Positions 7,130-38,180 of a stretch of 38,180 nt of DNA are shown here, piece after piece. Numbering within the stretch: the stretch's first letter is position 1; every line of letters begins with the position of its first letter. Made by a program: the position numbers and the translations under genes. Below the pieces are notes generated by a model that did not search any database, was not told where the DNA came from, and worked only from the letters and a program-made list of their open reading frames with translations. Origin of the DNA: a bacterium (GTDB lineage: Bacteria > Elusimicrobiota > Elusimicrobia > Elusimicrobiales > UBA9959); contig JAJZPF010000028.1 of NCBI GenBank assembly GCA_021811315.1, positions 1-38,180 of the forward strand, in the 5' to 3' direction.

Positions 7130-8149
7130 ATGAAAACGATCATACTGTTTTTAGGTTTGGCGGCCCTTTTCCCTTTCGCTGCGGCGGCCGGGGATTTTCC
7201 CCTTGGGTTTTACGGGATCGCCGGGCCGAAGGAACTTGGCGTTTTGAAAGAAGCGGGGTTCAACTGCTTCCACACTTATACGCAGGACCCGGAGCGGCTT
7301 GCGGCTCTTGCGGCGGAAGCGAAGAAGCTCGACCTTAAGATGGTCGCTTACCCGGACAGGGTCATTGGTTCTACTTTCGAGAAAGAAGCGAAGCGCTGGC
7401 CGGTCCTGGCCTGGTATCTTTACGATGAGCCTGAAGTGCGGAAGTTCCCCCTGGCTTCGCTTGAACAAATGGACAAGCGGGTGAAGGATTGGTCCTCGGC
7501 GGCGAAAACTGTTTTTGTGATGGGCGAGGGCGTGGCCGCTTTCAATTACGGCGGCGTGGCCGATATGCTGATGGTGGACTGGTACCCGGTACCGCATCTG
7601 CGGCTCGAGTCCGTCGGCGAGCAGATCGCTATGGCGAAGGCCGGCGCGGCGATCAAGGACCCTTCGCGGCAGGACAAGCCGGTCTGGGCTGTGCTCCAGG
7701 CTTTCGACTGGATAGGCTACCCGCAGAAGAGGCAGCCCCCCGTTGGCGGCTTTCCCACTTTCGAGCAGGTCCGCTTCATGACCTATCTCGCTATCGCGCG
7801 CGGCGCCGAGGGTATTTTCTACTTCACCTATACCGGTTCCGACGGCGTTCCGCTCCCCAACCGCCCCGAGCGCTGGGGCATCTACCAGCGGATCGCCGCC
7901 GAGCTTAACTCGCTTATGCCGGCGCTGAAAAAAGGCAAGCCCGGCGTCCTGCCGGCCGGCCTTGACGCGAACCTGGCCTACCGGGCCATCAAGCAGGGCG
8001 GCAAGAACTACATCATATTGCTGAACGCTTCGGAGGCCCCTCTCCCCCTCAACCCCGAAGTCCTCTCCCCCTACCGCCCCCTCTTCGAACAAAACCGCGC
8101 CCTCCCCCCCGCCCTAGCCCCCCACAAAGTCCTGGTCCTGGAAAAATAA
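7130..8149 (+). CDS. Secreted glycoside hydrolase-like TIM-barrel protein
   Basis: The protein has 339 residues with a signal peptide cut near residue 20 (AAAA-GD). Features that recall clan-A glycosidase-like barrels are the strand/acid motif WYLYDEPE (about 88-95), MVDWYPVP (about 145-152) and the late strand GAEGIFYFTYTG (about 224-235), followed by a small beta domain at the C-terminus (NYIILLNASEAP). The YDEPE acid pair is a plausible catalytic site. The substrate is unknown; its position beside the exopolysaccharide genes makes a glycan a fair guess. It is monocistronic: own leaderless promoter upstream and terminator at 8196. No exact family could be named. Confidence 0.62.
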   Translation: MKTIILFLGLAALFPFAAAAGDFPLGFYGIAGPKELGVLKEAGFNCFHTYTQDPERLAALAAEAKKLDLKMVAYPDRVIGSTFEKEAKRWPVLAWYLYDEPEVRKFPLASLEQMDKRVKDWSSAAKTVFVMGEGVAAFNYGGVADMLMVDWYPVPHLRLESVGEQIAMAKAGAAIKDPSRQDKPVWAVLQAFDWIGYPQKRQPPVGGFPTFEQVRFMTYLAIARGAEGIFYFTYTGSDGVPLPNRPERWGIYQRIAAELNSLMPALKKGKPGVLPAGLDANLAYRAIKQGGKNYIILLNASEAPLPLNPEVLSPYRPLFEQNRALPPALAPHKVLVLEK

Positions 8150-8152
8150 CCT

Positions 8153-8173
8153 TGTCGAGGCGAAGCCTCGACA
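8153..8173. repeat. REP-type palindrome, copy 2
   Basis: Perfect palindrome with 9-bp arms around GAA; core GAGGCGAAGCCTC. It lies just after the stop of the TIM-barrel gene. It belongs to the set at 4618-4638, 8586-8610, 9279-9299, 10156-10186 and 10215-10229. Confidence 0.85.
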
Positions 8174-8195
8174 GAGTCCTCACATTCAGCGAACA

Positions 8196-8224
8196 AAAGA
8201 ACCCGGCTAAACGCCGGGTTCTTT
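8196..8224 (+). terminator. Rho-independent terminator of the TIM-barrel gene
   Basis: A 12-bp perfect stem (AAAGAACCCGGC at 8196-8207 with 8213-8224, loop TAAAC) is followed by GTTT. The A-rich start could let it work both ways. Confidence 0.88.
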
Positions 8225-8235
8225 GTTTGGCTGCC

Positions 8236-8264
8236 TTGGCAGGCAGTAGCTTATGTGCTACTAT
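8236..8264 (+). promoter_or_regulatory. Promoter of the HigA-like gene
   Basis: TTGGCA (8236-8241) and TACTAT (8259-8264) are 17 nt apart. The TACTAT box is the same hexamer used by the FecR-like operon. The start codon at 8294 is about 23 nt past the expected transcription start. Confidence 0.7.
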
Positions 8265-8293
8265 GCAAGCACAGATTATCAATTAGGTATAAG

Positions 8294-8584
8294 ATGAAAT
8301 CAACCGAAAGCTACCACAAGGATTTACTAAAACGTCTTGCCGATCCCAAATACGCCATGGGATACCTCAACGCCTGTCTTGAGGACGAGCACGAGGGCGT
8401 CTTCCTGCTCGCGCTGCACGATGTGGCGCAGGTACACGGCGGCCTGGCGCAGATAGCCAGGAAGACCAAACTCAACCGCGAGCATCTATTCCGAATGCTC
8501 TCGAAGAAGGGCAACCCGCAGCTTCACAACCTGCGCCTCATAGCCGGAGCCATGGGCTATAAATTCACCCTCCGCAAAGCTTAA
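8294..8584 (+). CDS. Orphan HigA-type antitoxin (COG3636-like addiction module antidote)
   Basis: A 96-residue DNA-binding protein. The central part YLNACLEDEHEGVFLLALHDV and the following helix-turn-helix (about 55-80, LAQIARKTKLNREHLFRMLS, then GNPQLHNLRLIAGAMG) match the COG3636 antidote family that normally sits just after a RelE/HigB-like toxin gene. No toxin gene is found upstream: that side holds only a terminator and this gene's own promoter. The start is ATG 8294 (an in-frame ATG further up lies inside the promoter). The stop codon overlaps that of the convergent RAYT gene in the shared tetranucleotide TTAA. Probably a solitary regulator or the remnant of a toxin-antitoxin pair. Confidence 0.82.
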   Translation: MKSTESYHKDLLKRLADPKYAMGYLNACLEDEHEGVFLLALHDVAQVHGGLAQIARKTKLNREHLFRMLSKKGNPQLHNLRLIAGAMGYKFTLRKA

Positions 8585-9267
8585 TCCTGGTGAGGCGAAG
8601 CCTCAGCAGGTAATTCCCTTTTATTTTTTAGATATTTGGTCATGCTGGCGAAGAAACCGCCGTCCCGCATAAAGGACTCTTCAAGCAACTTCCTATTCGT
8701 AATCGCGGGAAAATTGTCCCTGCCTGCATAGTCCTGAAAACTGCTCCACTTATATTCCCTCAAAAATTCCATTTCAAGATCCACGGACGGAAAAGGCGGC
8801 ATGAGTTTGAGAGGATTTGCGTGTATGTAAAAAGGGATTCCTTCAAAATGACCCTCCCCTTTGATCCTGACGCACTTGAACACCCCCTGAAAAAGCACAC
8901 CTGTACGTTGGTACTTTTTATTAAAGAACATCGTGTAGGCAGTGCCCAGCTTCTGCATAAAGGCTGCAAGTCCACCCTTGCTCCGCTGCATTAATAGAAG
9001 GTGGAAGTGGTTAGGCATAAGCGCAAATGCCAGGATATCCACTAGTTTTTGACCGCCATTTTCAGTTCGACGCGAACCCTCTGAGCATGCCGGGCGCGGA
9101 TGGGCAAAGAAGTAGCCTGAATGCAGAACAGCCGCAGCACAGTTCATTCTTTCCAGATCATACACGAAACGACCTTTATCACAATCGTCGGCAAACACTT
9201 CACGCTTATCCGCTCCCCTGTTATAGATGTGATAGATCTCCCCCTCCGCAAATATAATCTTTCGCAT
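8581..9267 (-). CDS. RAYT: REP-associated tyrosine (Y1/IS200-like) transposase
   Basis: A 228-residue single-strand nuclease of the Y1 family. Visible are HIYNRG (13-18), the HUH metal site MPNHFHLLL (His87, His89) and the nucleophile Tyr147 in YIHANP, then the family phrase YKWSSFQDYAG (172-182). All catalytic residues are present. A stretch around 57-72 (PRPACSEGSRRTENGG) looks like an in-frame insertion relative to usual RAYTs. The start is ATG 9267, preceded by GAGGAGGGG; an upstream in-frame ATG is less likely. The gene is bracketed by palindromes of the GAGGC-GAA-GCCTC type, one of which encodes the last residues (LPAEASPHQ). RAYTs are known to act on such palindromes. Confidence 0.92.
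   Translation of the reverse strand: MRKIIFAEGEIYHIYNRGADKREVFADDCDKGRFVYDLERMNCAAAVLHSGYFFAHPRPACSEGSRRTENGGQKLVDILAFALMPNHFHLLLMQRSKGGLAAFMQKLGTAYTMFFNKKYQRTGVLFQGVFKCVRIKGEGHFEGIPFYIHANPLKLMPPFPSVDLEMEFLREYKWSSFQDYAGRDNFPAITNRKLLEESFMRDGGFFASMTKYLKNKRELPAEASPHQD
8586..8610. repeat. REP-type palindrome, copy 3, inside the 3' end of the RAYT gene
   Basis: Palindrome CCTGG-TGAGGC-GAA-GCCTCA-GCAGG, with one mismatch. It encodes the C-terminus of the RAYT. Confidence 0.85.
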
Positions 9268-9278
9268 ACCCCCTCCTC

Positions 9279-9299
9279 TGTTGAGGCTTCGCCTCGACA
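9279..9299. repeat. REP-type palindrome, copy 4, upstream of the RAYT start
   Basis: Arms of 9 bp around TTC with one wobble mismatch, in the opposite orientation to copy 3. It lies 12 nt upstream of the RAYT start codon, so the gene is flanked on both sides. Confidence 0.85.
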
Positions 9300-9353
9300 C
9301 ATATACCATAGCAGACGAACCCGACAAGGGCGTGTCGACTTGGGAATAAAAAT

Positions 9354-9388
9354 GAACAGGGGACTTTTCCTTGAAAAGTACCCTGTTC
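9354..9388. terminator. Two-way terminator hairpin between RAYT region and zeta module
   Basis: The arm GAACAGGG (9354-9361) pairs with 9381-9388, and ACTTTTC (9363-9369) with 9373-9379. A T-run follows on the plus strand (9391-9396) and on the minus strand (complement of 9347-9351). It serves the leftward zeta module. Confidence 0.75.
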
Positions 9389-9400
9389 TCTTTTTTGAAA

Positions 9401-9550
9401 TTAGAGGGATTTTGGGGAGACGTTTACTGCTTTGCCGTTTTTCCAGATGGCCAGGGGGCGTCCTGTTTTTTTATGGTCGGCCACTACTTTCCGCACGGCG
9501 ACTTTCATGGCTATTTCCGCTTTGTCCTGCATGGAAAGTCTTTTTTTCAT
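9401..9550 (-). CDS. 49-residue partner of the zeta-type kinase (candidate antitoxin)
   Basis: A short basic protein: it begins MKKRLSMQDKAEIAMKV, continues through VVADHKKTGRPLAIWKNG and ends VSPKSL. Its ATG overlaps the stop of the zeta-type gene (ATGA), so translation is coupled, and a terminator follows. From memory, small proteins with this HKKTGRPLAIW pattern accompany COG4185 zeta-like genes; this could not be checked. A helical N-terminal half and a short beta hairpin near the C-terminus are plausible. The likely role is to neutralise or assist the kinase. Confidence 0.75.
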   Translation of the reverse strand: MKKRLSMQDKAEIAMKVAVRKVVADHKKTGRPLAIWKNGKAVNVSPKSL

Positions 9551-10128
9551 AGGTTCACGGACTCCATTATCATCCTATATATTTGTTGGTTTTCGACAGT
9601 AAGGCTACTGCCCGCGCCCTTGGCCGCCAATACGGGCTTTTCGCCGGAATTATCAAAAAGCATCCAGGTGTCGGCCTGCCCGGAGTAGGCTTTAAAGAAA
9701 TTATATATTGAGCGGGGAAAACGGCGCCTGACGTCGTTAGTAAGCACGTCATGGCCACCTTCGGCAACTCTATTTTTTACCCGCAGAAGGGAAAGGCCCA
9801 CCCCGGGAACCCATAAAAAAAATAAGTGTATTTTATAGCCCGCCGCTTTTAAGCGCCGGAACATATTGATATGACCGCGGCCGGACAAGGTGGTTTCAAA
9901 GCCGAAATCCTCACCGCTTTTTGTGAACTCGCGTATGCTAGTCAGTACCAGTTTTCCAGCTTTAAGCGCCACAATACCAGGAGCAAAAGGAGACAAGCCG
10001 CTGGCGATGAGGTCGGCATTTACGAAGTGGTTGCATTTAGCGTAATTGGGCAGGAACTCTCTGGCAAAAGTGGTTTTGCCAGAGCCGTTAGGACCGGCTA
10101 CCACATATACATTGGAAACTTTACCCAT
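9547..10128 (-). CDS. Zeta-toxin-like kinase (COG4185 predicted ABC-type ATPase)
   Basis: A 193-residue P-loop kinase. It has Walker A GPNGSGKTT (12-20), NADLI (37-41), FETTLSGRG (77-85), RVAEGGHDV (120-128), RRRFPRSIYNF (135-145) and FDNSG (158-162), the motif order of zeta-like kinases of the COG4185 group. Zeta toxins phosphorylate UDP-N-acetylglucosamine, but it is not known whether this subgroup does. ATG 10128 is preferred over TTG 10131. It sits 7 nt after a TGCTATAAT box, so the message is probably leaderless. The 49-residue gene downstream overlaps by 4 nt. REP-type palindromes lie just upstream. Confidence 0.85.
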   Translation of the reverse strand: MGKVSNVYVVAGPNGSGKTTFAREFLPNYAKCNHFVNADLIASGLSPFAPGIVALKAGKLVLTSIREFTKSGEDFGFETTLSGRGHINMFRRLKAAGYKIHLFFLWVPGVGLSLLRVKNRVAEGGHDVLTNDVRRRFPRSIYNFFKAYSGQADTWMLFDNSGEKPVLAAKGAGSSLTVENQQIYRMIMESVNL

Positions 10129-32064: not shown

Positions 32065-32928
32065 TTATAGCCCGCTGTCAACCCGGGGCGGGGCCTTTTT
32101 GGAGGAGTCAGGGGCCGCTTTTGGCGTCCCGCTTATGACGGAAGGGTCGAAGGTCATTTCGCCGTCCCCGTCCGCGTCCGAGGGCCGGGAATCTACGGAA
32201 GGCTGGCCCATGGGGACGGAGACAGCTCCCCCCTGCGGCGCGCCCCCGGGCATCCCCGGGAGCATGGGCATGCCCCCGGGCATGTTCCTCATGAGGGGCT
32301 GCATCTCGGGATCGTTCATGAATTCCATCATCAGGCTCAGGAATTCCGGGCGGGCGGCGTATTTCAGCATGAGTTTATCCATGCCTTTGGCGCCCTGGAT
32401 CAGGCCTATCACTTTAAGCGGGTTATTGTCCTTTGAAGCGGCTAAAGCCGCGGCCATGTCCGGATTTTTCTTCATGTCGGCGAGAAAAGCTTTGACTATG
32501 GGCCTGTCGGCGTACTTGTTCATTGCCCTCAGGATCTGCCCGCTCTCGTCCGGATTCATGATGCCGACCGATCGCTCGCCCGGCAGCCCCCCCGCGAAAA
32601 GGCCCAGCCCGGAGCCGGAAGCGGAAGTAGAAGCGTAGACGCGCTGCGCCATCGGGATGGTCCTGTTCTCGGACTGGTAGCCGGGGGCCGGCGGAGGAAA
32701 GCCCTGGAAGACGTCCTCCAAAGCGTCCCTCGCGTTGGAGATCTTGTGGTAAATATAGAAGCCGCCGCCGGCGATGATCAGGAACATCGAGACGAGGACC
32801 GCGGCCACGATCTTGAGCGTCTTGTTCCGGCCGCGCACGCGCGCCAGCTCGGCGCGGAGCTCGACTTCCCGCGGGTCGGGCTCCGGGGCGTTCTCGGGCG
32901 GTACAGGAGCGTTGTTCGTCTCGGTCAT
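32065..32928 (-). CDS. Unknown membrane protein with Met/Pro/Gly-rich segment
   Basis: A 287-residue protein not recognised as a known family. The N-terminal 35 residues are acidic then basic (cytoplasmic), one membrane span follows (about 41-63, VAAVLVSMFLIIAGGGFYIY), and the rest is probably periplasmic. The segment PEFLSLMMEFMNDPEMQPLMRNMPGGMPMLPGMPGG (split over about 190-225) resembles the Met-rich repeats of STI1-type chaperone regions, which bind hydrophobic peptides; this is only a resemblance. The tail has an Asp-rich DADGDGEMTFD stretch. It precedes the M23 and bactofilin genes on the same strand (18 nt), so it may belong to the same envelope function. Confidence 0.7.
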   Translation of the reverse strand: MTETNNAPVPPENAPEPDPREVELRAELARVRGRNKTLKIVAAVLVSMFLIIAGGGFYIYHKISNARDALEDVFQGFPPPAPGYQSENRTIPMAQRVYASTSASGSGLGLFAGGLPGERSVGIMNPDESGQILRAMNKYADRPIVKAFLADMKKNPDMAAALAASKDNNPLKVIGLIQGAKGMDKLMLKYAARPEFLSLMMEFMNDPEMQPLMRNMPGGMPMLPGMPGGAPQGGAVSVPMGQPSVDSRPSDADGDGEMTFDPSVISGTPKAAPDSSKKAPPRVDSGL

Positions 32929-32997: not shown

Positions 32998-33023
32998 AAA
33001 AGCAGGCTTTTTAGCCCGCTTTT
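32998..33023. terminator. Terminator-like hairpin between divergent transcripts
   Basis: A stem AAAAGC-x-GGC/GCC-x-GCTTTT with one mismatch, ending in a T-run. It lies upstream of both tRNA-Glu and the leftward genes, so its role is unclear. Confidence 0.4.
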
Positions 33024-33043
33024 TACAAGTAATCGGTCCATGC

Positions 33044-33119
33044 GCCCCCTTCGTCTAGCGGTTAGGACGCTGCCCTTTCAAGGCAGAGATCACGGGTTCG
33101 AATCCCGTAGGGGGCGCCA
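33044..33119 (+). tRNA. tRNA-Glu (TTC)
   Basis: Acceptor GCCCCCT/AGGGGGC, T-arm GGGTTCGAATCCC, anticodon stem CTGCC/GGCAG with loop CTTTCAA, giving TTC (Glu). CCA is encoded at 33117-33119. Confidence 0.97.
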
Positions 33120-33123
33120 ATTT
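33113..33123. repeat. 11-bp direct repeat at the tRNA-Glu 3' end (candidate att core, left copy)
   Basis: GGCGCCAATTT here recurs in the same orientation at 37973-37983. The two copies bracket the AT-richer gene group. A tRNA 3' end is a common integration target, but no integrase gene lies between the copies. Confidence 0.4.
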
Positions 33124-33168
33124 ATGCCCATTAGTGGCCCGATGAAGAAGGCTTCTTCGGAACAGAAC

Positions 33169-33198
33169 AAAACCGCGTCGTCAAAGGCGCGGTTTTTT
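33169..33198 (+). terminator. Terminator after tRNA-Glu
   Basis: A stem AAAACCGCG/CGCGGTTTT (33169-33177 with 33188-33196) followed by T. Confidence 0.85.
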
Positions 33199-33273
33199 AT
33201 CTCCCGGCAATTGCCGACAATTTGCCGTAAATTGGCGATAAACTCATCTCTCTCCGGGTTGCGAAGGGTTTAG

Positions 33274-33328
33274 GGTCAGGTCTTTACTTTTGAATTTTTA
33301 CACCCAGTTCAAGAATCAAGACCTGATC
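33274..33328 (-). repeat. Inverted repeat after the HEAT-repeat gene
   Basis: 11-bp arms GGTCAGGTCTT and AAGACCTGATC (one wobble mismatch), with a smaller inner complementarity (TTTTGAA with TTCAAGA). It is placed like a terminator 1 nt past the HEAT-repeat stop but lacks a T-run, and resembles the other long hairpins at 9354 and 12163 in style. Confidence 0.5.
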
Positions 33329-33329
33329 T

Positions 33330-34607
33330 CTATTTCTCACCTATTCCCCCCATAGTTTTGTAATCACTATAGTCACTGCTTGACTTTATAATCACTGCGG
33401 AATGTTTTTGAAGGATTACGCGAGCATCCGGTGTACCGATTTGTTTCAGAGCAGTCCGCAGCTCTTTAATATTTCTGGCACGAAACATCCGACTGCCTTT
33501 ATCCGAACTCTCCTCATATCCTTTAACTTCCGCATCTAACTTCGCACCAAGAAAATCCACCAGACCTGGGGTTTGCGTTTTGAGGCGGGCCAATCCTATC
33601 GCAGCCGACTCTTTGACATAATCCGCTGACGCTTTGTGAAACAAGCGAACAAGCAACTCCGCTAATCCAGGGCCATCGATAGGATAATTACGAACAGCAT
33701 CCGCTATGCCATATTCATGCTTGTAATCGTCAATTGAGACTACTTCCATGATAGCCGCGACGTCGCCAATGCCCCCCAAGGCTTTTATCGCGGCTCGCGT
33801 TTCTCCCCATCTTCCGCCACCGCTTTTAATAAAGCGTTTTAAATCGGGAACAGCAGCTTTCGCTTCAGGGCCTATACGCTCCAAGGTGATTAACGCTCCC
33901 ATAACTAAATCCTGTTTTGGATCGTCCAGAAGCTTAATCAATAGCGGGACCGCCGGAGCAGCAGACCGCCCGAGCCTTCCCAATGCAAACACCGCGTCTA
34001 CCGGATGTTCACGGGATTCCAATGCTTGCATTAAGCGGGGCACATCATCCTGTGACACATTTCGGAATTTAGGCCCCAATAGCATGACCTGTCTGTTGAA
34101 AATGGCGAATGAAACCCCGAAAACCACAATGAACACTACAGATGGAACCCATATCTTTCTGCTAAAAGAACGCTTCTCATTCTGAGCCTCAGGGCTTTCC
34201 TCACCTCGGGTCCAATTGCAGCGGTATAACCACGCCGTAAAACACGCCCCGACAATAATCGAGATACCGAACGACAGCCCGATTATCCCCCTGGCATTGG
34301 GGAGGGCGTATCCCGCCCCAGCAGCCAAAGCTAAAAGAGCCACCAATCTGCGATTGCTTGGCGCGATCAAAGCCGCCCCTAAAATAATAAAAATCGCCCC
34401 AATAGACGGAGCGACAAAGAGCAGTACCCGACTAGAGTAAAGAAACCAGGGAGCCGTACACACCCCTGACACCATCTGGTCAGCAGGGCATAAATTATTC
34501 CCCACTACATAAAAACCAAGTCCCAACAGCATTGGAACCAAGTACCCTGCCGCCGCAAGTGGAACACAGAGCCACCTTATCACTGAAATGATTCGCGCTT
34601 TTTTCAT
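33330..34607 (-). CDS. Membrane protein with C-terminal HEAT repeats
   Basis: A 425-residue protein. The first 185 residues hold five to six membrane spans (for example 12-35, 60-82, 86-102, 108-127, 155-173). The cytoplasmic part (about 190-400) is a HEAT-type repeat solenoid: VPRLMQALESREHPVDAV, AVPLLIKLLDDPKQDLVMGA, AVPDLKRFIKSGGGRWGETR, each ending in a GALG- or RIG-type turn. It is probably a protein-protein scaffold at the membrane. AGGAG 10 nt before ATG 34607. It is last in the AT-richer string and follows the metallophosphoesterase gene by 59 nt. No enzyme motif seen; function unknown. Confidence 0.72.
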   Translation of the reverse strand: MKKARIISVIRWLCVPLAAAGYLVPMLLGLGFYVVGNNLCPADQMVSGVCTAPWFLYSSRVLLFVAPSIGAIFIILGAALIAPSNRRLVALLALAAGAGYALPNARGIIGLSFGISIIVGACFTAWLYRCNWTRGEESPEAQNEKRSFSRKIWVPSVVFIVVFGVSFAIFNRQVMLLGPKFRNVSQDDVPRLMQALESREHPVDAVFALGRLGRSAAPAVPLLIKLLDDPKQDLVMGALITLERIGPEAKAAVPDLKRFIKSGGGRWGETRAAIKALGGIGDVAAIMEVVSIDDYKHEYGIADAVRNYPIDGPGLAELLVRLFHKASADYVKESAAIGLARLKTQTPGLVDFLGAKLDAEVKGYEESSDKGSRMFRARNIKELRTALKQIGTPDARVILQKHSAVIIKSSSDYSDYKTMGGIGEK

Positions 34608-34666
34608 ATATGCATTACTCCTGAAAAGGGACCATACTGGGATGACACTTTTTCATTTCCAGACTG

Positions 34667-35800
34667 CTATCGAGGTTTCAATTCCAGCAAAAGCACTTGC
34701 GGCCTACAGAAGGTGCGCACGCGCGGCGCGACATGCCCCTCCATGCCCAAACCTCGCGAAACCACTACTGAAAGCCCTTCAACCTGTTGGATACCACCGG
34801 CGGCTATCTTTCGACTAACACCGCTCAAGGTTAGAATGGGCCCACCCCACGGCGGGCACATCTGCCCGCCGTGCGTGTGCCCAGAGAACAAAGCCGTGAC
34901 AGAGAGTCCCTTTGCTGTAGCCATGGTATCCGGCACGTGACTCAATAACAGAGTGACATCCACCCTGCCTAACTTTTCCAAGAGCGATACCAGCAAGGAC
35001 CTGTCCGCAAAATTATCCAATCCCAAGCCTACCACGCCCACGGAATTTCCCTCAACCTTGATTTTCCGGAAATCACCGTCTAAAACCGTGAACCCGGTAT
35101 CCTTGTAGAACTCGCTGAGGTTCAAGTGCATGTCGATATTGCCACTTACCGCGAACGAGCCGCTACGGCTTTTGAACCCACGCAGATACACCTGTATTTC
35201 GGATTCAATTGAGGGGTGGTTGATCAGATCTCCAGTGAAGAAAATGAGGTCAGGCGCGAAATCGTTCACCGAACGCTGCGCTTCCAGGTGCATAGCGCGG
35301 AGGTCATCGGTCTGCAAATCAGAGATATGCGCTATCTTTATAGGCACTTTCAAGCCCTTCACGGCGATAGATGCGCGCTGGACCTCTAAATTATTGGGTT
35401 CATAAACCTCGCCATAGAACTTGAACACCAACAACAACAATGCCGGCAGCAGCAACACAGCTTTCTTCAGACGAATGGCGAAGAATACAAGCAATAACGG
35501 GATTGCCACGGTGAAGAGCGTCCAGAAGGTGCGTACGATCAACGAAAAGCCTACGATGCCCCCTACGAAGGCTCCGGCCAGCACCCAAAGCAGGACAGCA
35601 CCGATCAATCCACGTCTGCAGGCTGCCACCAAGCCTGAATCCGGCCACCTTCTGCGATGTATGAAGGCCAGCGCATAAAAAGTGAATGTTATGGCAAGGT
35701 CCAACCCAAGATTGACCGGCCCGAACGCATTCCAGTAAAAACTCATACTTTTCATCCTAACTACGCTGAGTGGATACTGTTTCCCAAAACCCCGATTCAT
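34667..35800 (-). CDS. Membrane-anchored metallophosphoesterase (YkuE-like) with altered metal-site residues
   Basis: A 377-residue protein: four membrane spans in the first 130 residues, then a calcineurin-type domain. Motifs: SDLQ (161-163, where DxH is usual), TGDLINH (189-195), SGNID (219-223, where GNHD is usual), SHVPD (287-291) and SGHTHGG (306-312). Two of the usual histidines, the first metal ligand and the catalytic GNHD His, are thus replaced by Gln163 and Ile222. Either activity is changed or the domain only binds. The start at 35800 has no clear ribosome site; ATG 35755 is an alternative. It lies 20 nt after the Abi_C gene. Confidence 0.85.
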   Translation of the reverse strand: MNRGFGKQYPLSVVRMKSMSFYWNAFGPVNLGLDLAITFTFYALAFIHRRRWPDSGLVAACRRGLIGAVLLWVLAGAFVGGIVGFSLIVRTFWTLFTVAIPLLLVFFAIRLKKAVLLLPALLLLVFKFYGEVYEPNNLEVQRASIAVKGLKVPIKIAHISDLQTDDLRAMHLEAQRSVNDFAPDLIFFTGDLINHPSIESEIQVYLRGFKSRSGSFAVSGNIDMHLNLSEFYKDTGFTVLDGDFRKIKVEGNSVGVVGLGLDNFADRSLLVSLLEKLGRVDVTLLLSHVPDTMATAKGLSVTALFSGHTHGGQMCPPWGGPILTLSGVSRKIAAGGIQQVEGLSVVVSRGLGMEGHVAPRVRTFCRPQVLLLELKPR

Positions 35801-35820
35801 TTTATGGACTTATCGAGATT

Positions 35821-36594
35821 TTATGTAGCCTTTCTTTTTTCTATATATGTCAAGTAAAGGTAGTCGGAAAAAGCTTTTGCAACAGTAACAGTTAAGACTG
35901 AGTGTCTTTCACTGATTTTATACTTAACCTTCCGAGATTTACCATGTGCGTCACCTAGCAGATTCCTGATGCTGGCAACCCCATTTATTATTGAAAAGCA
36001 CCCTGACAAAACCTCTTTGAAGGGCTTTTCCTCATAGATACTTGGAATCATTGAGAGGATTTTGGAGACTTTCTTGTATAACTCTGGGAGGTCGTCGTTT
36101 TGCTTGTATGCGAGATCCTCTTCGTCGAGGATATACTTACATATACTCTCTACAAGAGTTCTAGCGCTAGTGATGGCGCCATCGTAGTCACCGGTATTAT
36201 TCTTTTCGTCACATTTCGCTATCTGCTCACGGATATATTCAAAATCAATAGTGTCAATCTTAGCCGCGGGGCGGTTGCTGGTCGGGAGTGGGGCATTGGG
36301 GTTCACAAAGAAGTCTATCCCGGTTATTTCTATGGAATTATCCTTAACGGGATAAGGAACATGAAATGCCTTGACTATTATCCTTTTGTCTTCGGGCGAG
36401 AGGGCTTCAAGTAGTTCCTGTTTTTCTAAGGATGAGTATATCTCTACAGTAGTGCATTGTGAGTATGCTCGGCTACCATAAGTATTACTGATATTTAGGG
36501 AATAAACAGCTCCCCGTAAAAGCTTGGCCAAATCTATTCTTTTACGGTGTTTTAAGACACCGAGGATATCGTCAATTGGGCTTAATTCGTCCAT
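35821..36594 (-). CDS. Abortive infection protein with Abi_C-type C-terminal domain
   Basis: A 257-residue protein. The N-terminal half (1-115) is unassigned. The C-terminal half matches the Abi_C pattern closely by eye: CDEKNNTGDYDGAITSARTL (128-147), ESICKYILDEEDLAYK, DLPELYKKVSKIL, LSGCFSIINGVASIRN and LLGDAHGKSRK. The stretch RNLLGDAH gives an R-N-x5-H motif (Arg210, His217), compatible with HEPN-type RNases. I chose ATG 36594 because AGGAG stands 9 nt upstream; GTG 36639 would overlap the upstream stop by 4 nt and add 15 residues. It is likely to act in phage defence by stopping growth, as family members do, though the partner and trigger are unknown. Confidence 0.8.
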   Translation of the reverse strand: MDELSPIDDILGVLKHRKRIDLAKLLRGAVYSLNISNTYGSRAYSQCTTVEIYSSLEKQELLEALSPEDKRIIVKAFHVPYPVKDNSIEITGIDFFVNPNAPLPTSNRPAAKIDTIDFEYIREQIAKCDEKNNTGDYDGAITSARTLVESICKYILDEEDLAYKQNDDLPELYKKVSKILSMIPSIYEEKPFKEVLSGCFSIINGVASIRNLLGDAHGKSRKVKYKISERHSVLTVTVAKAFSDYLYLTYIEKRKAT

Positions 36595-36635
36595 AAACCT
36601 ACTCCTACCGTTTTGGGAAATTACTATTTCCGCAA

Positions 36636-37244
36636 TCACGCAGGTCGTTTTTCATGACTCGTAACGTATATACGGCCAGATTTCACATAATGCTGTTCAA
36701 ATTTATCTCGCAGGCCCGAATTGGAGGCAAGCAGCACTTTATATTTCTCAATTGCGGCAAAAAAGAAGCGCTTTAGCCCCCATAGCGTAACACGATGTTC
36801 TCCATTTCTAACGCTATACCAATGAACGTTCGCGACTTCGGTAGTAAAAACGGTATTACTAAGAATGCCTAAATCCAAGGAATACGAGTGATGCAAAGCA
36901 TTCCTAAACTCCCAAGCGAACTTTGCCTCCGCATATGAAACCCCACATACCTCTTGCAGAAATCTCTTAAAGATCACGCCTGGCCGGCCGGAATCATTGT
37001 AGAATTTCGCCATCATATCGATACCGGTCAAAATTCCCATTGCCGCTAGATATGGGGCCTTATGTTTATCATTCCCATCCGGACCAAAACTATTTTCTTT
37101 GAGATACAGGTGCTCCAAGTCCCGCCGCAGCAAATGGAGCACAGGTCTTTCGCCTGAGGAAACCAATTCCTGCGGCAATTCAGAAACGGGGCATGGTGGT
37201 AAAAAGAATTTTTCAATTGAGTTCATAAACAAGTGGTGAATCAT
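36636..37244 (-). CDS. HEPN-like protein, uncharacterised
   Basis: A 202-residue all-helical protein. No named family was recognised. The phrase WEFRNALHHSYSL (111-123) contains R-N-x3-H (Arg114, His119), the active-site signature of HEPN RNases; the helix before it (AAMGILTGIDMMAKFYND, KRFLQEVCGVSYAEAKFA) fits the HEPN bundle. I chose ATG 37244, preceded by AAAGGGG, over TTG 37259, which would sit at the transcription start. It is first in the AT-richer string and ends just before, or overlapping, the Abi_C gene. A toxin-like RNase or its partner is the most likely role. Confidence 0.7.
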   Translation of the reverse strand: MIHHLFMNSIEKFFLPPCPVSELPQELVSSGERPVLHLLRRDLEHLYLKENSFGPDGNDKHKAPYLAAMGILTGIDMMAKFYNDSGRPGVIFKRFLQEVCGVSYAEAKFAWEFRNALHHSYSLDLGILSNTVFTTEVANVHWYSVRNGEHRVTLWGLKRFFFAAIEKYKVLLASNSGLRDKFEQHYVKSGRIYVTSHEKRPA

Positions 37245-37266
37245 TGCCCCTTTACCCAACTTGATT

Positions 37267-37278
37267 ATTCTACAAAAC
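37267..37278 (-). promoter_or_regulatory. Promoter of the HEPN/Abi_C gene string
   Basis: The minus strand reads GGTTTTGTAGAAT, sharing TTTTGTAGAAT with the promoters at 26722 and 32986. Transcription should start near 37260. Confidence 0.6.
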
Positions 37279-37352
37279 CTGTGTCAGATATTTCGGTATT
37301 CTCCCGGGTGGGTCATTACGCCGTATCATGAATGGGCGGGGACAGGTGAGGC

Positions 37353-37407
37353 GGGCCAGGCCGGGGGCGGCGGCGCTCCCGTGCGCAAGACGCTACCGGC
37401 CTGGCCC
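37353..37407. repeat. Inverted repeat A
   Basis: Perfect 12-bp arms GGGCCAGGCCGG (37353-37364) and its complement (37396-37407), 31-nt loop. Confidence 0.75.
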
Positions 37408-37559
37408 TCCCCTACCTTATTTCCCCGCAGTTTCCCCTCGGTGGCTGCAAAGCAGTAACAGAAAAGACCAGCGCGGCGGCCGCAGCAGCAGACGCCAGGC
37501 TGGTGTTTTGTAAATACGGCGGCCACCGGATAATTCATGAGATGGATAACAGGAACAGG

Positions 37560-37604
37560 CCCGCGCCGCTGGTGGCCTCAGCAGAGGCCACAGGCGAGCG
37601 CGGG
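37560..37604. repeat. Inverted repeat B (two-tier hairpin)
   Basis: An outer stem CCCGCGC/GCGCGGG (37560-37566 with 37598-37604) and a perfect inner stem GTGGCCTC-AGCA-GAGGCCAC (37572-37591). Confidence 0.8.
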
Positions 37605-37728
37605 CAGAGTCTGTAACGATATTGGTTCAACTCTTTGCAGTGGGCGCGGGAAATAATTTTCTGCGTTGTACGGACGCCGAAGGCGGACGGGAGCGGCCGG
37701 GTAAGGCCTGTTTGGGGCCGGCCGGCCG

Positions 37729-37776
37729 CGCATCGGAGGTGTTGATAAGATGCAGAACACCTTTGGAGCCGATGCG
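37729..37776. repeat. Inverted repeat C (two-tier hairpin)
   Basis: CGCATCGG (37729-37736) pairs with 37769-37776 and AGGTGTT (37737-37743) with 37756-37762. Confidence 0.8.
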
Positions 37777-37972
37777 AAGGCGCGTAGTGCCGAGCCCGGC
37801 GAACCCGCTACTTAGCGGCGAAGCATGGGCGGCCGCGCGGCGTGGCCGACCGTGCGGCATCTCGCGGATAAGATCGGCCTACCTTTTCGATCCCAGGACG
37901 GGCGCTGAAGCGGTACTTATAATGTTTCCTCGGGATGTTGCGCAAAGTAGTCTCGAACGATGTCTAAATGAC

Positions 37973-37983
37973 GGCGCCAATTT
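37973..37983. repeat. 11-bp direct repeat, right copy (candidate att site)
   Basis: GGCGCCAATTT, identical to the tRNA-Glu 3' end at 33113-33123 and in the same orientation. It lies beyond the four AT-richer genes. Confidence 0.4.
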
Positions 37984-38044
37984 TTTGAAACGCGGAAATC
38001 CGGCCCGCAGAAGCCCGGCCTCCCGTAAGGCCCGATCAATAAGG

Positions 38045-38180
38045 CTTTTTCGGAATCGGGTAGGAGGCGGGTGATTAGTTCACCCGCCGTCCTCACCACA
38101 CCACCGTACGTACCGTTCGGTATACGGCGGTTCATCAGAACTAATAGGCCGAGGAAAGCCGCCTGCTTAAGCTAGGGAAT
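38045..38180 (-). mobile_element. 3' end of a group II intron (domains V and VI), cut by the window edge
   Basis: Reading leftward, a domain V-like hairpin (about 38098-38133) begins GAACCGCCGTATACC, has a GAAC loop and a GT bulge and ends ACGTACGGTGGTGTG, with a CGC triad as in group IIC introns. It is followed by a domain VI-like stem GGCGGGTGA/TCACCCGCC (38066-38088) and the phrase CTCCTACCCGATT, which recalls IIC intron 3' ends. The rest of the intron, with any reverse transcriptase gene, would lie right of the window. An open frame across this region is a by-product. Confidence 0.7.

Follow-up and report, generated by a model that had tools for sequence, protein, structure and literature searches.

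Near one end of an Elusimicrobiota contig (JAJZPF010000028.1, assembly GCA_021811315.1), four consecutive minus-strand genes raise the question of whether they act together as one new defence system or are separate pieces of cargo at an integration site. The window, that is the whole stretch of DNA that was analysed, is 38,180 nucleotides long and corresponds to the entire contig (C16) of a draft genome of 2.67 Mb in 48 contigs, which is 63% complete. The four open reading frames (ORFs), here called genes A, B, C and D in this order, are located between a tRNA-Glu (TTC) gene at 33044..33119 and the contig end at 38180. They are arranged as described in the original prediction, which had combined them into a single system with a pair of HEPN-type proteins, a membrane phosphoesterase and a HEAT-repeat scaffold. 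The reading favoured here, with a probability of about 0.65, is that the string is variable cargo past the 3' end of the tRNA-Glu gene, composed of a gene for an AbiJ-type ribonuclease (RNase), a small gene of the kind that accompanies restriction-modification (RM) systems, and passengers, and that it is not one four-part machine. A and Abi_C were searched for in 340 Elusimicrobiota genomes (the phylum genomes), and the B protein, C, D and the gene that flanks the tRNA in 61 related genomes.

The tRNA-Glu site and its cargo

The tRNA-Glu gene, which anchors the hotspot, lies on the plus strand and its 3' end faces the string. On its other side a conserved flank gene is found (32065..32928, minus strand), which had a match in 33 of the 61 genomes, its own genome included and three of the matches being weak. 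Nineteen of the 29 flank loci in other genomes were fetched, and in all 19 the tRNA-Glu (TTC) gene adjoins the flank gene in the same arrangement. The cargo beyond the tRNA 3' end varies among these loci. It consists of a type I RM system with Fic and a relative of A in L039 (genome G005), of AbiEi/AbiEii in L042 (identified by Pfam) and in L044 and L051 (assigned from similarity to relatives that were scanned), of Fic in L045 and, on the same basis, in L051, and of Abi_2 and other genes in L057. In L044, a Schlafen-type gene is present alongside AbiE. A serine recombinase was found in six loci (L050 and L052-L056, one of them scanned by Pfam). No such cargo gene was recognised in L040 and L046, where the ORFs over 12 kb were read by eye without a scan, and one unscanned ORF follows the tRNA in L049. 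In L041, L043, L047 and L048 the contig stops at most 0.6 kb past the tRNA, and L043 contains an unscanned fragment that may be the end of a recombinase.

Each of the six recombinase ORFs tested has its end 30 bp within the tRNA gene, as expected for an element that targets this tRNA, and the C-terminal residues are the same in all six. In these six loci the contig is broken 0.2-0.4 kb short of the start of the recombinase. Integration hotspots at tRNA genes that collect defence cargo are a known kind, and the site shares with them the conserved tRNA-Glu gene, the variable cargo past its 3' end and, in six relatives, the recombinases ending in the tRNA. The site is a hotspot for mobile DNA and defence genes.

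The AT-richness originally noted for the string is real, and gene C is nearer to the host composition than A and B. The guanine-plus-cytosine (GC) content is 47.5% for positions 33120-37259 compared to 60.0% for positions 1-33043, with values of 44.6, 41.3, 52.5 and 49.4% for A, B, C and D, respectively. At third codon positions the values are 45, 43, 63 and 48%, those of two flank genes being 82 and 85%. The window is also AT-richer in one other stretch, at 8001-10000 (GC 0.485-0.513), where the GC skew changes. Between D and the tRNA an imperfect inverted repeat with 19-nucleotide arms (84%) was observed at 33276-33326.

The AbiJ-type protein B and its small neighbour A

Members of the AbiJ family are HEPN RNases that are inactive until infection and then cut RNA and halt the growth of both cell and phage. 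Gene B (35821..36639, minus strand) most likely starts at ATG 36594, which is preceded by AGGAG at a distance of 7 nucleotides. Its product matched the Pfam family Abi_C (PF14355) with an E-value of 2.5e-15 and 56.8 bits against a cut-off of 24, in agreement with the domain proposed earlier, and the PADLOC model for AbiJ with an E-value of 2.2e-27. The C-terminal Abi_C domain contains the motif RNLLGDAH (R225..H232, corresponding to R210..H217 when counted from ATG 36594). In 13 aligned relatives of B, N226 and H232 were present in all 13 and R225 in 12. Two further similarities were set aside, one to NCBIfam STM4504_CBY0614 (E 5e-4, with a score far under the family cut-off) and a weak one between the B profile and a designed helical bundle (E 0.004). 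Judged by its sequence matches, B is an AbiJ-type (Abi_C) protein. Since B is of the AbiJ type and the site is a hotspot, the proposed defence character of the neighbourhood holds.

Abi_C was identified in 14 of the 340 phylum genomes, in 11 of them above the cut-off, the window genome included. Relatives of B were present in 97 of 72,556 plasmid records and in 5 of 50,697 phage records, and no match was found in the viral contigs searched. The Abi_C neighbourhoods of 11 of the 13 other phylum genomes were analysed (10 above the cut-off; G219 and G260, both below it, were left out), and hsd genes were sought in them with ten queries at an E-value of 1e-8; one locus, L107, ends at its Abi_C gene. 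Genes of the hsd type were found around Abi_C in four of the 11 loci (L089, L105, L106 and L111). With the same ten queries, six plasmid Abi_C loci gave no hsd match; at one plasmid locus a helicase and a DNA methyltransferase adjoin the Abi_C gene, and at another a methylase is located ∼3 kb from it. In the RM locus of G015 (L089:9877-12986), hsdR is split over two consecutive ORFs and Abi_C lies between hsdS and hsdR.

The 2013 survey of HEPN proteins (PMC3710099) places AbiJ in the HEPN superfamily, links at least 16 HEPN clades to RM systems, and describes AbiJ proteins as occurring alone or within RM operons, the latter being more frequent for those that lack N-terminal domains. B shares with the AbiJ family the C-terminal Abi_C domain with R-N-x5-H, and occurrence alone or with RM systems is seen both in print and here; it differs in its N-terminal part, which had no Pfam match, and in that no hsd genes are seen in the window. 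B fits this HEPN and RM background firmly, and A by its neighbourhood only.

Gene A (36636..37259, minus strand) encodes a small unnamed protein of 207 residues when started at TTG, 202 at ATG 37244 or 196 at ATG 37226. It is found in three of the 340 phylum genomes, namely the window genome, G027 (66% identity) and G005 (51%). A single-sequence search of a genome-contig collection gave no match to A, and an alignment- and pattern-based scan of that collection returned the same two relatives; plasmids, phages and viral contigs that were searched gave no match. In G027 the gene order is hsdM, hsdS, hsdR, A, and in G005 it is hsdR, Fic, hsdM, hsdS, a gene for a 461-residue protein, A. The 461-residue protein (L039:7033-8418) had no Pfam match. 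In both relatives A is the last gene of a type I RM set, and in two genomes, the window genome and G005, A is located at the tRNA-Glu site. A is a small protein of the kind found ending type I RM gene sets. No hsd genes were seen beside A in the window, and the contig ends ∼0.9 kb upstream of A, so that an RM system may be present further out.

The original prediction had also called A HEPN-like. The R-N-x(n)-H motifs noted in both proteins are indeed present, in A as RNALHH (R119..H124 from the TTG start, R114..H119 from ATG 37244). However, the HEPN-likeness received no profile support. A had no family match in Pfam, NCBIfam or PHROGs, and no HEPN profile match in these sets, PADLOC or the PDB sequences; a profile of A compared with the Abi_C set was negative (hhalign 0.1%). 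Similarities to PADLOC Mvol_0529-fam (E 0.048, insignificant), of one of the three A proteins to Herpes_UL49_2 (E 0.13, weak) and of the A profile to Thf1 (E 0.84, weak) were set aside. The odds that A has a HEPN fold are, on present sequence data, roughly even. It is quite possible that A is not a HEPN protein but a small protein of some other type that has an accessory role at type I RM loci, and that its R-N-x3-H arose by chance. The missing HEPN profile match points in this direction, as does the chance level of the motif, since 22% of the shuffled versions of A contain R[NHDQ]x3-5H and 86% contain the loose form Rx4-6H; moreover, many further columns of the three A proteins are as invariant as those of the motif. 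On the other hand, all three proteins, two of which are 66 and 51% identical to A, share the R, the N and both H without exception, A contains no hydrophobic segment, and its RM neighbourhood is a frequent HEPN context according to the HEPN survey (PMC3710099). The survey also treats PrrC, with PrrI, as a HEPN satellite of RM systems. A resembles such satellites in that its relatives end type I RM sets, and differs from them by being small, without an ABC ATPase, with a putative HEPN fold and with no RM genes seen in the window.

The adjacency of A and B raises the possibility that the two genes constitute a defence unit of their own, with no RM system involved, in which two HEPN-type proteins would pair, one as the RNase and the other as its partner or inhibitor. 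A and B are the most AT-rich of the four genes, they overlap by 4 nucleotides or are 41 nucleotides apart, depending on the start of B, and both contain R-N-x(n)-H. This arrangement is nevertheless rather unlikely, because A and B were found together in no other of the 340 phylum genomes, no A-like protein was detected near Abi_C in the neighbourhoods fetched (L038-L057 and L086-L119; best non-relative E 0.26), and the comparison of the A profile with the Abi_C family was negative. A further, improbable reading is that A is the founding member of a new HEPN family, made up of satellites of type I RM systems in Elusimicrobiota, and that here it would have left its RM system and joined an AbiJ-type protein to form a compact RNase defence unit of two proteins at the tRNA-Glu hotspot.

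Genes C and D and the recurrence of the string

Gene C (34667..35800, minus strand; likely start ATG 35746, where its orthologs begin) encodes a calcineurin-like phosphoesterase (PF00149, E 1.3e-9) with four hydrophobic segments. The usual metallophosphoesterase motifs are D-x-H and G-N-H, and the altered metal site that had been reported for this membrane protein was recovered as D-L-Q and G-N-I-D. Orthologs with 59-67% identity were identified in three other genomes of the 61 (G025, G013 and G015), all three with D-L-Q and G-N-V-D, whereas D-L-H and G-N-F-D are found in a G028 protein with 31% identity. As such changes are common to the three orthologs, the altered site is not a mark of this string, and its interpretation as a special feature was rejected. 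C matches YaeI/LpxG-like metallophosphoesterases in NCBIfam (E 3.2e-22 and 8e-22, far below the cut-offs), but differs from these enzymes by its metal site and an extra hydrophobic N-terminus. Gene D (33330..34607, minus strand) encodes the expected membrane protein with HEAT repeats, in which four hydrophobic segments are followed by the repeats (HEAT_2, E 6.1e-13). No ortholog of D was found in the 61 genomes; all matches listed are confined to the HEAT part, with starts at residue 176 or beyond.

The four genes are on the same strand with short to moderate spacers, all are AT-rich, and the string sits at a defence hotspot, as would suit a single system. The spacers are short when the first possible starts are taken, A and B overlapping by 4 nucleotides, but looser with the better starts, namely 41 nucleotides between A and B and 74 nucleotides between B and C (starts 36594 and 35746). 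The promoter-like motif that the genes had been thought to share was not recovered: a consensus scan of 33000-38180 gave two sigma-70-like sites, compared to a mean of 5.7 in shuffled sequence, none of them upstream of A, and the sole minus-strand site is inside gene B. The co-occurrence of the genes was checked, and the string did not recur in the genomes examined, an outcome that the original prediction had named as refuting a single system. A (3/340) and Abi_C (14/340) meet only in the window genome, the C orthologs in G025, G013 and G015 have none of A, B and D as direct neighbours, no ortholog of D was found in the 61 genomes, and neither C nor D was found beside relatives of A or B in L038-L057 and L086-L119. 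The four-gene combination was not met in the literature searched, in which no search was aimed at its four names. With no recurrence in the genomes examined, no promoter found upstream of A, GC values of C and D unlike those of A and B, and a metal site that C shares with its orthologs elsewhere, a single four-gene system is very improbable and was rejected. C and D are probably unrelated membrane proteins that travel as passengers, as suggested by their non-recurrence.

The contig end, proposed roles and significance

Upstream of A a dispersed non-coding repeat is located at 37304..37979, of which many copies are present in the same genome. Copies were found in contigs C30 (81%), C48 (93% over 314 nucleotides) and C47 (73%) of this genome and in G009 (88%). 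In C47, two inverted copies enclose a small AT-rich cluster of genes, to which a serine recombinase is adjacent, and part of the repeat is found at the RM/Abi_C locus of G015. A probable 3' end of a group II intron follows at 38055..38132 on the minus strand (RF00029, 38.2 bits against a gathering score of 40, E 5e-5). The last 127 bases (38054-38180) recur without a mismatch where contig C14 ends, so that C16 and C14 seem to stop in the same repeat. Elsewhere in the genome, contig C35 contains a 2dG-II purine riboswitch aptamer (L135:2203-2273) above the gathering score.

Several observations weigh against the reading of the string as variable cargo. Unlike at the known tRNA-gene hotspots, no recombinase was recognised in the window, and a search that allowed up to three mismatches gave no further copy of the tRNA end in it up to the contig end. 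The contig stops before the far flank, so that the other border of the cargo lies outside; a search of the same genome for this flank with the G019 sequence gave no match, an empty answer that is uninformative. Only two relatives of A are known, and seven of the 11 other phylum Abi_C loci had no hsd match, nor was one seen in the window. All four genes are AT-rich and run in the same direction, as one operon would, and in G015 a gene for a HEAT-repeat protein, which matches D through its repeats, is located ∼5 kb from the C ortholog on the same strand.

By analogy with its family, B would be an RNase that is kept inactive and freed on infection, so that growth stops before phage release. A may be a small protein that assists or guards type I RM systems. 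Proteins of the PrrC type have been proposed as second-line guards of RM systems, and A, if HEPN-like, could be such a second-line RNase. C and D would be separate, unrelated membrane proteins.

The four-gene system is not borne out, and what remains of interest is how A folds and what role it plays. With the tRNA-Glu gene and its conserved flank, a concrete hotspot for defence genes and mobile DNA is pinpointed in a little-studied bacterial phylum. In addition, a small unnamed gene family is brought to light, the known relatives of which sit with type I RM systems. Should A turn out to be a HEPN RNase, it would provide a compact model for the proposed guarding of RM systems by proteins of this type.

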